NCBI GenBank assembly: GCA_902806335.1
Contig: CADCWG010000214.1
Span: 1-64,000, forward strand
Length of the DNA stretch: 64,000 nt
Reading direction: 5' to 3'
Source of the DNA: an uncultured Thermomicrobiales bacterium
GTDB taxonomy: Bacteria; Chloroflexota; Chloroflexia; Thermomicrobiales; UBA6265
The position numbers were made by a program, and so were the translations under genes. The first letter of the stretch is position 1. Each line of letters starts with the position of its first letter. This document shows, piece after piece, positions 19,482 through 24,680 of this stretch. The notes beneath the pieces were generated by a model, which was not told the DNA's origin, searched no databases, and worked only from the letters and a program-made list of their open reading frames with translations.

Positions 19482-20894
19482 CTAGCGACCGGGGCCGACC
19501 GCCTCTCCGACGAAGAACCAGGGGCTCGTCTGCGTGATCCGGACGTCGACCAGTTGCCCGAGACGGTCGGCCGCGTCGTCGAAGTGGACGAGCTGGTTGC
19601 CGCGGGTGCGGCCGGTCCAGCGGCCCTTTGCCTTCCCCTCGACCAGCACCTCGACCGTCTCACCCAGGCGCCGGGCGTTCCGCTCCGTGCAGAGCCGGAC
19701 CTGGAGCGCTTCCAGCGCCTGGTGGCGTCGGAGCTTCTCCGCGTGGGGGACGTCGTCCTCCCAGCGCGCCGAGAGCGTCCCCGGACGCGGGGAGTACATG
19801 GCGAGGTGGACCTTGTCGCAGGCGACGTCCTCAAGGAGGGCGTACGTCTGCTCGAACTGGGCGTCTGTCTCACCCGGGAAGCCGACGATCACGTCGGTCG
19901 CGACGGTGCACCCCGGCATCTGGTCCCGGGTGAAGGCGATCCGTTCCCGCCACAGCTCCCGGGAGTAGGTCCGCCGCATCCGCCGGAGCACCTCGTCGTC
20001 CCCGGCCTGCACCGGCAGGTTCATGTGCTCGCAGCAGGAGGGCAGCTCGGCCATGGTGCGGATGATCTCGTCGCTCATGTACCTGGGATGCGAGGTGAGG
20101 AACCGTAGCCGCTCGAGCCCCGGCACGGCGTCGACCGCGCGGAGGAGACCGGCCAGTCCCGGCTTGTCCGGGAGGTCGTGGCCGTACGCGTTGACGGTCT
20201 GGCCGAGCAGCGTCACCTCGCGGACGCCGCCGGCGACGAGGCGCTCGACCTCGGCGACGATCTCGGCGAGCGGTCGACTGGTCTCCTTGCCGCGCCGGTA
20301 CGGCACGATGCAGTAGGAGCAGAGGAAGTTGCAGCCGTAGATGATGGGGACGAAGGCGGTGACCGCGGCGCGGCCGGCGTCGGTCGACAGCCCCTCGGCC
20401 TGGGGCGCGTAGTAGTGCGGCAGCTGCTGCAGGTCGTCCTCCAGGTCGGCCAGCTCGGGCACGACCGTCTGGAGGCGGTCGAAGTCCGACGGGTCGAAGA
20501 AGAGGTCGACGTGCGGGAACCGCTCCTTCAGCTTCTCTTGCTGGTTGGTCACCATGCAGCCGGTCAGGACCAGCGGCATCTGGGGGCGTTCCCGCTTCAG
20601 GCGGGCCAGCGAGTTGAGCTTGCCGGCGACCTTGTCCTCGGCGGCCTGGCGCACGACGCAGGAGTTGAGGACGACGATGTCGGCGTCGGTCTCGTCCTCC
20701 GTGCGCCGGTAGCCCACCTCCTGCAGCATCGCCGCGACCTTGGCGCTGTCGGCCTCGTTCATCTGGCAGCCGATGGTCCAGATGAAGAAGCGCTTGCCGT
20801 TCGGCGCCAGGCGCGGGGGCGCGGTGGCCGGATGCGGGGCCAGCGGGATGACCGTGCTCGACGGCGGCATGGGCTCCTCGACGCTAGGCAGCAT
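19482..20894 (-). CDS. miaB: tRNA-2-methylthio-N6-dimethylallyladenosine synthase MiaB
   Basis: 470 residues. A radical-SAM methylthiotransferase that adds the 2-methylthio group to i6A37 of tRNAs reading UNN codons. Three domains are visible: the N-terminal UPF0004 region with the auxiliary cluster ligands Cys43, Cys79 and Cys113 ('TIGCQMNEADS', 'NSCVVR', 'TGCM'); the radical-SAM core with 'CNFLCSYC' at 188-195; and a C-terminal TRAM domain ('GETVEVLVEGKAKGRWTGRT'). MiaB rather than MtaB/RimO is indicated by 'TIGCQMNEAD' and the sequence around the core. Start: ATG 20894 has no clear ribosome-binding site; ATG 20870, preceded by GAGGAG at short spacing, is possible and would drop an unconserved Pro-rich segment. 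Confidence 0.93.
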   Translation of the reverse strand: MLPSVEEPMPPSSTVIPLAPHPATAPPRLAPNGKRFFIWTIGCQMNEADSAKVAAMLQEVGYRRTEDETDADIVVLNSCVVRQAAEDKVAGKLNSLARLKRERPQMPLVLTGCMVTNQQEKLKERFPHVDLFFDPSDFDRLQTVVPELADLEDDLQQLPHYYAPQAEGLSTDAGRAAVTAFVPIIYGCNFLCSYCIVPYRRGKETSRPLAEIVAEVERLVAGGVREVTLLGQTVNAYGHDLPDKPGLAGLLRAVDAVPGLERLRFLTSHPRYMSDEIIRTMAELPSCCEHMNLPVQAGDDEVLRRMRRTYSRELWRERIAFTRDQMPGCTVATDVIVGFPGETDAQFEQTYALLEDVACDKVHLAMYSPRPGTLSARWEDDVPHAEKLRRHQALEALQVRLCTERNARRLGETVEVLVEGKAKGRWTGRTRGNQLVHFDDAADRLGQLVDVRITQTSPWFFVGEAVGPGR

Positions 20895-21119: not shown

Positions 21120-21148
21120 TAGACAAGGCGTCCGGCCGTTGCTACAAT
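21120..21148 (+). promoter_or_regulatory. Promoter of the twin Cys-module gene
   Basis: -35 TAGACA (21120-21125), 17-bp spacer, extended -10 TGC-TACAAT (21140-21148). Five of six bases match at each hexamer. Predicted start near 21155, leaving a leader of about 70 nt. Confidence 0.75.
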
Positions 21149-21226: not shown

Positions 21227-23314
21227 GTGCCCGCGTCCGCGCGACGGAGACGGGCGCTTTGGACCGCGGACCCGGCCGGGCGGGTCCTGAGGGGGCAGGG
21301 GTTGGCCAAGCGCAAGTGCGGAACGTGCCAGTTCTTCCAGTCGGGTAGCTTTGCCGATAGTGGATGGTGTCTCCACCCGCAGCGCCGCCAGTCCAGCGAC
21401 GTGCGGATCATGGTCCGCCGCAACGAGTTCGCGTGCCGGAACGGGTGGGGGGGCGACCTCTGGGAGGCGGGCAGCGGCGACGGAGGGGGGGCGATCTCCG
21501 TCGAGCCGGTCGCCGTCCGACCCGCCGACCCCGCAACCCGGGTCGAGATCGCCGCGGTCGCCCGCGTCGACGCCGGTCGGGTGGAGTCGCCCCGCGCGGC
21601 TGGGGACGAGCGCGGCCGACTCGACGCAGAACCGACCTCGTCGGCGACGCCGGTAGCGGGCGAGGACGTGGTGGTCGGGCACACGCCGATGCGGCCGGCA
21701 CCGACCGCGGAACTCCCGGTGACGCCACCGCCACCGGTCGTCGAGCCGGACGCACGGTCCACGATCCTCGCCCAGGACACCCGGGCGGCGATCTTCAAGG
21801 CCCGAGAGCGGGCCCGGGCCAATGTCGGGGTGCGAGCCCGGGCCGCGGAGCTTGCCCTGCCCGCCACCGACGCGCCGGCGCCCAGGGCTGGCTCCGACGC
21901 AGGGGCGGCGGGCGACGCGCTCGACATTCCATCCGCCCCGCCGCGCCTCCTGGCCACGCGAGACGAGGCGCCAGCGGGGCGACAGGCGCGGCCAGCGACC
22001 GCGGGCGCCGTGACGCCCGAGCCGCCCGCCCCGGTTCCGGTGACCGAACTTCCCGCCGACGCCGAACGGCTCGCCGAGCCGACGCTCGTGGCCCGGTTCG
22101 ACACCGTCCCCAGCCGGCGATCGGACTTCGATCTCCCCCACGCCGGACCGTCGGCCCATGGCCTGGGACGGACGACCGGGGAAGGGCGGCAGCGGCCGCG
22201 GATCGGTGTCGCCTCGCTGCCCGAGCAGCGTGCCGGCGCTCCTGAGGTCCAATCGGACCGGGACGGCGCCATGACGCCGGCGCAGGACCCGGGTGAGCGC
22301 CGACGCGCCCTGGGCGATCCTCTGGTGCCGACCCCGTCGTCGGCGATCGCCGCGGACGAGGTAGACGGTCGGGAGCCTCAGGGAGCGGAGCCGGCACCAC
22401 GGCGGTCGGAGATGGTCCGGGCCAACGTCCCGGCCGGCGACCGTCGCCAGGATGGCACCGGGCCCATCCAACTGCCCTCGCTCTCGGACCTGTTTCGCGC
22501 CCCGAGCCGTGACACCGCCGGACCGGAGCGCGCGGAGGACGGGAGCGAGCGGGACGATCACCGGGCCGCGCAGCGGTCAGAGGTGCGGTGGCCCGCCGAT
22601 CCCACGGACGGCGAGTCGTCGGGTGCGGTGCGCCGCCTGCGGCGCACCGCGTCCCGCGAGTCCACCCCGGCTGAACCACCCCGGGGGGCCGCCGAGCTGA
22701 CCGAGGGCACCGGCGCGCGCGACGGATTCGCCGCTGGCGACCACGCGTGGACCGATTCCGGGCGCTCGGCGCTGCCGCACCGTGAGCGCTACCCGGCCTT
22801 CGCCGAACGGGGCGAGGCCGCCTGGCAGCGGGCGGTGGGCTCCGCGGTGGAGACCGAGACGAGCGAGCCGGACGACAAGGCCGCGCCCACGGCGGTGGAG
22901 GTCGATCCGAACGACGGCCGCCAGCTCGTCACCGCGGCGCCCGCGCCCGTGGACCACCTCGTCTTCACCGTCGATGACGCCCAACTAGGGCTGCCCGTCC
23001 AGCTGGCTCCGGAGCTGCCACGGATGTGCGTGACGTGCCGCGACTTCCGCCCTGCCGAGGCCGGCGGGCGCGGCTGGTGCACGAACCGGTTCGCGTTCTC
23101 CCACCGGCGGATGGTCGATGCCGATGAGCTGCCGTGCGCGGGCTCTCTCGGTACCTGGTGGCTGCCGCGGGACGACGCGTGGCTGGCGACGGCGGACGTC
23201 CAGAGCCACAGCCAGCCGACGCCGATGGCCGACGCGATGATCGCCCAGCAGCACCTGGAGCAGCCCGCGGTTGCCGTCGGCGGTGGGGCACGCCGGTCGC
23301 GGCAGCGGTCGTAG
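21227..23314 (+). CDS. Large disordered protein with a Cys4 module at each end
   Basis: 695 residues from GTG 21227 (GGGGAGG 7 nt upstream); TTG 21302 just before the first module is an alternative. Function unknown. Two copies of one short module bracket the protein: N-terminal Cys31, Cys34, Cys48, Cys70 and C-terminal Cys601, Cys604, Cys618, Cys637. Both read C-x2-C-x13-C-x18/21-C, with 'GWC' at the third Cys, an acidic-hydrophobic pair before the fourth, and aromatic 'W' after it. Four Cys in this spacing could hold zinc or an iron-sulfur cluster. The roughly 530 residues between are Ala/Pro/Arg/Glu-rich low-complexity linker. Transcribed from its own strong promoter; a RodZ-like gene follows 265 bp later. 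Confidence 0.7.
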   Translation: MPASARRRRALWTADPAGRVLRGQGLAKRKCGTCQFFQSGSFADSGWCLHPQRRQSSDVRIMVRRNEFACRNGWGGDLWEAGSGDGGGAISVEPVAVRPADPATRVEIAAVARVDAGRVESPRAAGDERGRLDAEPTSSATPVAGEDVVVGHTPMRPAPTAELPVTPPPPVVEPDARSTILAQDTRAAIFKARERARANVGVRARAAELALPATDAPAPRAGSDAGAAGDALDIPSAPPRLLATRDEAPAGRQARPATAGAVTPEPPAPVPVTELPADAERLAEPTLVARFDTVPSRRSDFDLPHAGPSAHGLGRTTGEGRQRPRIGVASLPEQRAGAPEVQSDRDGAMTPAQDPGERRRALGDPLVPTPSSAIAADEVDGREPQGAEPAPRRSEMVRANVPAGDRRQDGTGPIQLPSLSDLFRAPSRDTAGPERAEDGSERDDHRAAQRSEVRWPADPTDGESSGAVRRLRRTASRESTPAEPPRGAAELTEGTGARDGFAAGDHAWTDSGRSALPHRERYPAFAERGEAAWQRAVGSAVETETSEPDDKAAPTAVEVDPNDGRQLVTAAPAPVDHLVFTVDDAQLGLPVQLAPELPRMCVTCRDFRPAEAGGRGWCTNRFAFSHRRMVDADELPCAGSLGTWWLPRDDAWLATADVQSHSQPTPMADAMIAQQHLEQPAVAVGGGARRSRQRS

Positions 23315-23579: not shown

Positions 23580-24680
23580 ATGACTATGTTCGGTGAGACA
23601 CTGCGTCAGGCCCGCGCCTACAAGGGCGTGACCCTCAAAGAGGCCGAGCAGGCGACGCGGATCAACCGCCACCACCTGTCCGCGCTGGAGGACGAGAACT
23701 TCGCGGCGCTGCCCCCGCTGATCTACCAGCGGGGGATCGTACGCAATTACGCTGCCTACCTCGACCTCGACCCCGCGAAGCTGCTCAGCCTCTTCGGCGA
23801 AGCCCACGGCGATCACCAGCCGGCCAACGAGCCGGTGCTGGCGATGAAGCCGCTGGACATGCCGAACCACTTCACCCCGAACTTCGCGATCATCGCCTTC
23901 ATGGTCGTGATGAGCGCGATCGTCTTCGCGTGGCTCTACAGTGCCTACCTGGCGCCGCCAGAGGCCCTCCCGACGACCGCGCCCGTGCTGACCGTGACAC
24001 CGATCGTGCGTACGGCGGCCAGCGCCGACCCGATCGGCGCGACCTCGACGCCGACCGCGACCGCGACGGTGGACCCTGACGCCCCGACCGCCACGGCGGA
24101 GGCCGAGCCAACCGAGCCGAAGGCCACCGAGGGCGCCTCGCGCGTCACGGCCGCCGGGACGACGTCCGGGCCGTCAGCGCGCAGGGCGACCCGGGAGCCC
24201 GCACCCACCGAGGAACCGCAGCCGACCGAGGAGCCGCAGCCGACGGCGGCGCCCGCGGAGGACGTCGAGGCGACGGGGACCGCCGCGGCGGCCTCGGCGA
24301 CCGAGGCGGCGGCGGAGCAGATCGTGGCCGACGCGGCCGAGTCGACCGCCGACGCGGCTGCCGACGCGGCTGCCGACGCGGCTGCCGACGCGGCTGCCGA
24401 CGCGGCCGAGGCGACCGACACCGCGGTGGACCCGGACGCCCTGGCGCTCGACTTCAGCACCGAGTCGCCGGACGGCGTCTACCTCTCGGTGCTGTCCGAG
24501 GACGGCACGGTCCTCTTCGACGGCCGGCTCGGACCTGGCGAGTCCACGGGCACGCTGCGCGCCGTGCAGTTCACGGTCTGGTCGAGCGATATCGGTTCGA
24601 CCCTGATCACGAACGAGGGCACCGGGCAGGGACCGTTCTACATGCCGGGCAGTGGCGCCGGGACGATCTCGCTCCCCTAG
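23580..24680 (+). CDS. RodZ-like helix-turn-helix membrane protein
   Basis: 366 residues. Residues 1-75 form a RodZ/XRE-type HTH ('GETLRQARAYKGVTLKEAEQATRINRHHLSALED' region, then 'YQRGIVRNYAAYLDLDP'). A single membrane span lies at about 100-120 ('FAIIAFMVVMSAIVFAWLY'), and the outer part is a Thr/Pro/Ala/Glu-rich linker and a small C-terminal beta domain from about 285 (DUF4115-like, 'SPDGVYLSVLSEDGTVLFDG'). RodZ anchors MreB filaments to the membrane in rod-shaped bacteria; whether that role holds here depends on whether mreB exists. The linker carries a 12-bp tandem repeat. ATG 23580 has GGGGGAG about 12 nt upstream; ATG 23586 is possible. Confidence 0.82.
   Translation: MTMFGETLRQARAYKGVTLKEAEQATRINRHHLSALEDENFAALPPLIYQRGIVRNYAAYLDLDPAKLLSLFGEAHGDHQPANEPVLAMKPLDMPNHFTPNFAIIAFMVVMSAIVFAWLYSAYLAPPEALPTTAPVLTVTPIVRTAASADPIGATSTPTATATVDPDAPTATAEAEPTEPKATEGASRVTAAGTTSGPSARRATREPAPTEEPQPTEEPQPTAAPAEDVEATGTAAAASATEAAAEQIVADAAESTADAAADAAADAAADAAADAAEATDTAVDPDALALDFSTESPDGVYLSVLSEDGTVLFDGRLGPGESTGTLRAVQFTVWSSDIGSTLITNEGTGQGPFYMPGSGAGTISLP
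24348..24407 (+). repeat. 12-bp tandem repeat in the RodZ-like linker
   Basis: Five consecutive copies of GCCGACGCGGCT (the last with one change), encoding repeated ADAA units. In-frame copy-number change would alter linker length without breaking the protein. Confidence 0.9.

Follow-up and report, generated by a model that had tools for sequence, protein, structure and literature searches.

A protein with related four-cysteine modules at both ends, encoded next to a RodZ-like gene in Thermomicrobiales, and its possible HiPIP-like fold

What role might be played by a protein that bears the same small cysteine-rich module at both of its ends and a long disordered bridge in between? Such a protein is encoded by the window analyzed here, namely the entire stretch of 64,000 nucleotides (positions 1 to 64,000 of contig CADCWG010000214.1) from an uncultured member of the order Thermomicrobiales (phylum Chloroflexota). 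The frame at 21227-23314 on the forward strand is open and constitutes a real ORF, with the following features in and ahead of it:

21120..21148, forward strand: sigma-70-like promoter match, TAGACA-17-TACAAT, with TG ahead of the second hexamer
21302..23314, forward strand: coding sequence of the two-headed protein, 670 aa from the likely TTG start, stop codon at 23312-23314
21302..21472, forward strand: N-terminal four-cysteine module, residues 1-57, with Cys6, 9, 23 and 45 (alignment A1, model and fold matches)
21473..23008, forward strand: cysteine-free low-complexity linker, residues 58-569 (composition and length comparison)
21782..21808, forward strand: linker motif RAAIFKARE, pattern [RK]-x-A-[IVLA]-[FLWIMY]-x-[AS]-R-[ED]
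23009..23266, forward strand: C-terminal four-cysteine module, residues 570-655, with Cys576, 579, 593 and 612 (alignment A2, model and fold matches)

The sequence-only reading of this locus began the protein at GTG 21227. A start codon is shared at the column of TTG 21302 by 30/36 aligned homologues (19 GTG, 7 ATG and 4 TTG), suggesting that the upstream GTG probably lies 75 bases too early and that translation is likely to begin at TTG 21302; in the numbering that counts from 21227, the module cysteines are Cys31/34/48/70 and Cys601/604/618/637. The strong promoter of its own that was claimed for the gene survives in part, since the TAGACA-17-TACAAT site matches at 10/12 positions and was found once against 0.1 expected, with its strength being that of a consensus match only. 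Comparison of the whole protein with Pfam, NCBIfam and PHROGs gave no match at a useful level, a search of plasmid records with it recovered none, and we did not find it described in the literature searched, in which few subscription papers were within reach.

Both modules follow the pattern C-x2-C-x13-C-x18/21-C, with the C-terminal version ending in a conserved GxWW...DD tail, and their eight cysteines are the only cysteines of the protein. The profiles of the two modules are homologous (hhalign probability 97.0%, E 1.2e-10, 45 columns), bearing out the earlier proposal that one module occurs at both ends with a low-complexity linker between them. Regular expressions that require the cysteines helped to choose the rows of A1 and A2, and a further 6 rows of A1 were picked manually; hence, the invariance of the cysteines in these alignments is partly built in. 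A recount was therefore made by comparing the module profiles, with no cysteine filter, to all ORFs of the window and of 47 homologous loci (48 loci in total). Profile A2 recovers 90 module copies, of which all 90 retain the four cysteines, disposing of the possibility, named in the earlier reading, that the cysteines are not conserved in orthologues. Two copies are present in 42/48 loci; five of the other six are contig-end ORFs (L043, L086, L088, L089 and L090), and the sixth, L087, encodes a short single-module protein. With profile A1, 77 of 85 copies show all four cysteines, and the remaining eight arise where A1 aligns with a C-terminal module only in part or out of register; A2 aligns these modules fully.

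The intervening linker varies six-fold in length across 31 homologues (106-660 aa, median 314). The linkers of these homologues are mostly acidic and contain just 7 cysteines in 10,732 residues. The basic motif listed above stands out within this otherwise variable region: it is found in 9/31 homologues, as against a mean of 0.018 and a maximum of 1 in 500 residue shuffles of the linkers, although this count is no probability, given that the sequences are related and the pattern was written after viewing them. It is possibly a third contact site.

The phyletic pattern of the two-headed protein is centered on a single order. A protein search recovered homologues in 57/61 relatives within Thermomicrobiales, including records of Thermomicrobium sp. 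CFH 73360, Thermalbibacter longus and Sphaerobacter sp. HOG56; some orthologues are short, e.g. one from Thermomicrobium with about 257 aa. Across the class, the module is present in 67/158 genomes, which comprise 59/61 from the order and 8/97 others, and across the phylum the N-terminal profile matches 14/400 genomes, 12 of them from the order. Outside the order, the one two-headed protein found (L202, at most 287 aa) keeps all eight cysteines. Scanning the genome contigs with alignment A4 (31 sequences) yielded 41 loci, and the same contigs scanned with the C-terminal part alone yielded no relative. In a further relative from the phylum, a 170-aa protein (L171:4738-5247, reverse strand) contains one module-like stretch together with a C-x2-C...C-x2-C stretch that by eye resembles a zinc ribbon.

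The sequence-only reading did not recognize the module. Structure prediction for both modules, which it had put forward as a check, instead points to the HiPIP-like [4Fe-4S] fold. Models made without templates (pLDDT 72.8 for the N and 80.9 for the C module) were used in fold comparisons, counted as one row per entry and with Z below 8 throughout. Among the listed matches with Z of at least 2, all 16 entries for the N module and all 15 for the C module are HiPIPs or HiPIP-like subunits of glycyl radical enzymes. The best match of both is 2y8n_B (Z 4.2 over 47 residues at 2.7 A for the N module; Z 5.2 over 43 residues at 2.1 A for the C module). The first rows of a Foldseek search contain HiPIP-type chains along with unrelated chains, at E 0.11 or worse throughout. 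Rubredoxin-like folds did not appear among the matches listed in the fold comparisons, an absence that does not count against them. Given the low Z values and the use of predicted models, the assignment of a HiPIP-like fold around the four cysteines is provisional.

Sequence profiles point in the same direction. Searches of the PDB with A1, A2, A3 and A7 place PioC or HiPIP as the top match (E 0.21, 0.24, 0.041 and 0.026, respectively), with unrelated proteins among the other matches at E up to 10. A 16-row module profile matched PioC alone, and its column-shuffled copy gave no HiPIP match. The alignments with PioC pair the GWC of the module with the fourth rather than the third cysteine of PioC and skip one PioC cysteine. 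In Pfam, HIPIP weakly matches 26/36 N modules (best E 0.0052), with the N module scoring 14.5 bits against a gathering cut-off of 22 for this family (PF01355), and HPIP_like (PF18524) matches 13/36 N modules below its cut-off (best E 0.0016). None of 36 C-module rows matches either family, nor does any of 16 shuffled controls, and HPIP_like matches 1/10 modules of the paralogue described below. When HPIP_like was compared to the 61 genomes with an E limit of 1, the N module of the two-headed protein accounted for 14 of the 27 matches, and no match in any of the 61 genomes rose above the Pfam cut-off. Thus, profile searches with each module, another check proposed earlier, return weak HIPIP and PioC matches but pass no family cut-off.

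The spacing of the first three cysteines, 2-13, provides a further likeness, being identical to that of the HiPIPs 1pih and 2hip; the spacing to the last cysteine is 18 or 21 in the modules and 15 in HiPIP. The N module matches 2hip_A with Z 3.8 over 46 residues at 2.1 A, within a family that also includes 1pih and PioC (6xyv). True HiPIPs are exported proteins with a signal peptide. In contrast to them, the modules here are cytoplasmic and duplicated and lie below the Pfam cut-off, and the first cysteine already stands at position 6 of the likely protein, leaving no room for an export signal; a classical HiPIP was rejected on account of this and of the score. The best fold matches are the accessory subunits of glycyl radical enzymes, namely HPAD gamma (2y8n_B), BSS beta (4pkf_B, 9pzj_B) and MASS gamma (9o8u_C), which share with the modules the HiPIP-like core and a C-x2-C-xn-C-xn-C motif that is present in 90/90 module copies. 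Unlike these subunits, the modules here cap the ends of a long linker, with the Pfam cut-off unreached. The glycyl radical domain PF01228 was detected in 0/61 genomes (control positive in 3/14), and membership in a glycyl radical enzyme was rejected because no such enzyme was found in these genomes. Taken together, three agreeing lines of evidence, each weak alone, suggest that the module is probably a HiPIP-like [4Fe-4S] module, with the evidence for the fold being weak but consistent. What is new about the module is its divergent use of a known fold and the architecture around it; the fold is not a wholly unknown one. The caveat that it might match a known domain of settled function is borne out by half: the fold is known, but its role is partly unsettled even in glycyl radical enzymes, and no such enzyme accompanies it here.

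The closest resemblance being to a [4Fe-4S] fold, iron-sulfur is a better guess than zinc. The main alternative at this level is that the modules are structural zinc modules with one zinc per four cysteines, whose fold is either identical or just similar, in which case the protein would still be a bivalent adaptor. Zinc ribbons consist of two C-x2-C knuckles, and this identity was rejected, as every module contains one C-x2-C and two lone cysteines. The same arrangement argues against zinc in general, as do the fold matches, which are to [4Fe-4S] proteins only, and the fact that no zinc family is matched by more than one module. On the other side, four invariant cysteines suit zinc, L171 links a module to a separate C-x2-C...C-x2-C stretch, and the modules are cytoplasmic in a lineage with an aerobic CO-oxidizing member, according to PMC2615216. 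We regard the zinc version as unlikely, though deserving of consideration.

The genes around the two-headed gene provide the first indication of a possible cellular context:

23580..24680, forward strand: RodZ-like gene (HTH_25, E 1.2e-20; Pfam, NCBIfam), downstream of and on the same strand as the two-headed gene
19482..20894, reverse strand: miaB-type methylthiotransferase, divergent and upstream (Pfam, NCBIfam)

The RodZ-like envelope gene that the sequence-only reading placed next is thereby confirmed, and such a gene lies downstream in 42/46 compared loci, with the other four loci ending inside the gene. Within Thermomicrobiales, rodZ is found 3' of the two-headed gene in every locus whose flank could be read, and the miaB-type neighbor in 31/46 compared loci. 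MreB, with which RodZ usually pairs, is present in 21/21 genomes and is thus available to the RodZ-like protein. Outside the order, no rodZ match was detected in the 10 kb around L202. The RodZ-like gene of the window also contains a perfect 12-base tandem repeat (24348-24406, 4.9 copies, GCCGACGCGGCT), which encodes an Ala/Asp-rich run.

A second indication comes from a single-module paralogue, of the kind the earlier reading had suggested looking for elsewhere in the genome. The genome of the window encodes exactly one other protein with the module:

L143:1188-2474 on contig C244, reverse strand: single-module membrane protein with an SH3 domain

It combines an N-terminal module with a hydrophobic segment, predicted to be a membrane helix, and an external bacterial SH3 domain (PF08239), and its module is homologous to the N module of the two-headed protein (probability 98.7%, E 1.5e-16). 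The gene lies directly 3' of two bactofilin genes and is followed by rpsB; of three bactofilin matches in this genome, the two strong ones are both at this locus. In a comparison of two sets of paralogue loci (14 + 5), two bactofilins accompany the paralogue in 10/12 loci within the order, are missing from the other two, and are found beside it in 0/7 loci outside the order. The paralogue, as opposed to the two-headed protein, resembles Csd5 of H. pylori in having a cytoplasmic N-terminus, a membrane helix and an external SH3 domain, a likeness of layout alone. According to PMC9507126, Csd5 joins the wall through its SH3 domain to the bactofilin CcmA through its cytoplasmic part. Bactofilin is thus a binding partner of Csd5, whereas for the paralogue it is known as adjacent genes alone, and the cytoplasmic part of the paralogue, unlike that of Csd5, is a four-cysteine module. 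Other one-module versions include short proteins with no evident membrane helix (L040:5691-6299, L041:5489-5956, L047:5459-5914 on the reverse strand and L087:1171-1656 on the reverse strand). SH3-type relatives from one other family of the class (L200:3457-5316, reverse strand, and L205:4967-6883) have a far longer, Pro/Gln/Ser/Tyr-rich linker, in ORFs of 620-639 aa.

Given the above observations, we tentatively favor the view that the two-headed protein may be a flexible, soluble, cytoplasmic bivalent adaptor, with HiPIP-like [4Fe-4S] heads for envelope or cytoskeleton partners. Each end would form a compact HiPIP-like module, with a [4Fe-4S] cluster most likely bound by its four cysteines, and the long cysteine-free linker would let both heads reach separate sites. 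According to PMC12358834 and PMC12590467, the glycyl radical enzyme subunits with this fold act by contact, either keeping the large subunit soluble or controlling conformation. By analogy with them, the heads may be docking modules, in which a mainly structural cluster probably builds and stabilizes the docking surface rather than carrying electrons. The adjacency of rodZ, together with the bactofilin-linked paralogue, suggests envelope or cytoskeleton partners, with RodZ-MreB and/or bactofilin filaments as the likely sites. The cluster, the docking role and the partners are what we infer in this proposal. The bivalent tether or scaffold of the sequence-only reading is thus still the best interpretation, strengthened by the bactofilin-linked paralogue, with its partners remaining conjectural.

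These partners are challenged by the view that the protein has a function unrelated to the envelope, e.g. in translation or RNA modification, and that its neighbors reflect frozen gene order. Gene order is generally kept at both loci (TPR, miaB, lipid kinase and coaBC at one; rpsB at the other), including genes without envelope roles, and adjacency alone is therefore weak evidence for an envelope link. Moreover, miaB and rpsB are likewise conserved neighbors, and outside the order both linkages vanish, with neither rodZ nor bactofilin adjacency being seen. Against this stands the paralogue, with its membrane helix, its SH3 domain on the outside, and a gene that comes immediately after those of the bactofilins. 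Such an unrelated function appears unlikely, at a level similar to the zinc version.

A doubtful further alternative is that of a redox or iron sensor, in which the cluster state of the heads would determine whether they contact RodZ, bactofilin or some other target, and wall growth would thereby respond to oxygen or iron. HiPIP-like [4Fe-4S] modules in an envelope gene context are compatible with it, but PMC12358834 and PMC12590467 ascribe a structural or conformational role to the precedent subunits of this fold. Least probable is an electron carrier akin to true HiPIPs that shuttles between two docking sites: despite the HiPIP-like fold and conserved aromatic residues, the first module begins 5 residues from the start with no export signal ahead, and no redox partner is present among the compared neighbors.

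Returning to the bivalent adaptor, one may speculate, at rather long odds, on a lineage-wide system of cytoskeletal cross-linking, in which the two-headed [4Fe-4S] tether links bactofilin filaments with the RodZ-MreB machine, these filaments are in turn fixed to the wall by the one-headed membrane protein, and the state of the cluster, set by oxygen or iron, gates envelope growth. The adaptor reading makes a clear test possible, namely whether the heads contain iron-sulfur clusters and whether they bind RodZ or bactofilin. If it is right, bacterial cell-envelope proteins would have adopted, as a docking head for repeated use, a fold previously encountered in electron carriers and in accessory subunits of enzymes, and one of these proteins would bear such a HiPIP-like head on either side of its disordered linker. 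The Thermomicrobiales, of which one member, T. roseum, is described as having an atypical cell wall, would thereby gain named candidate parts of an envelope scaffold.
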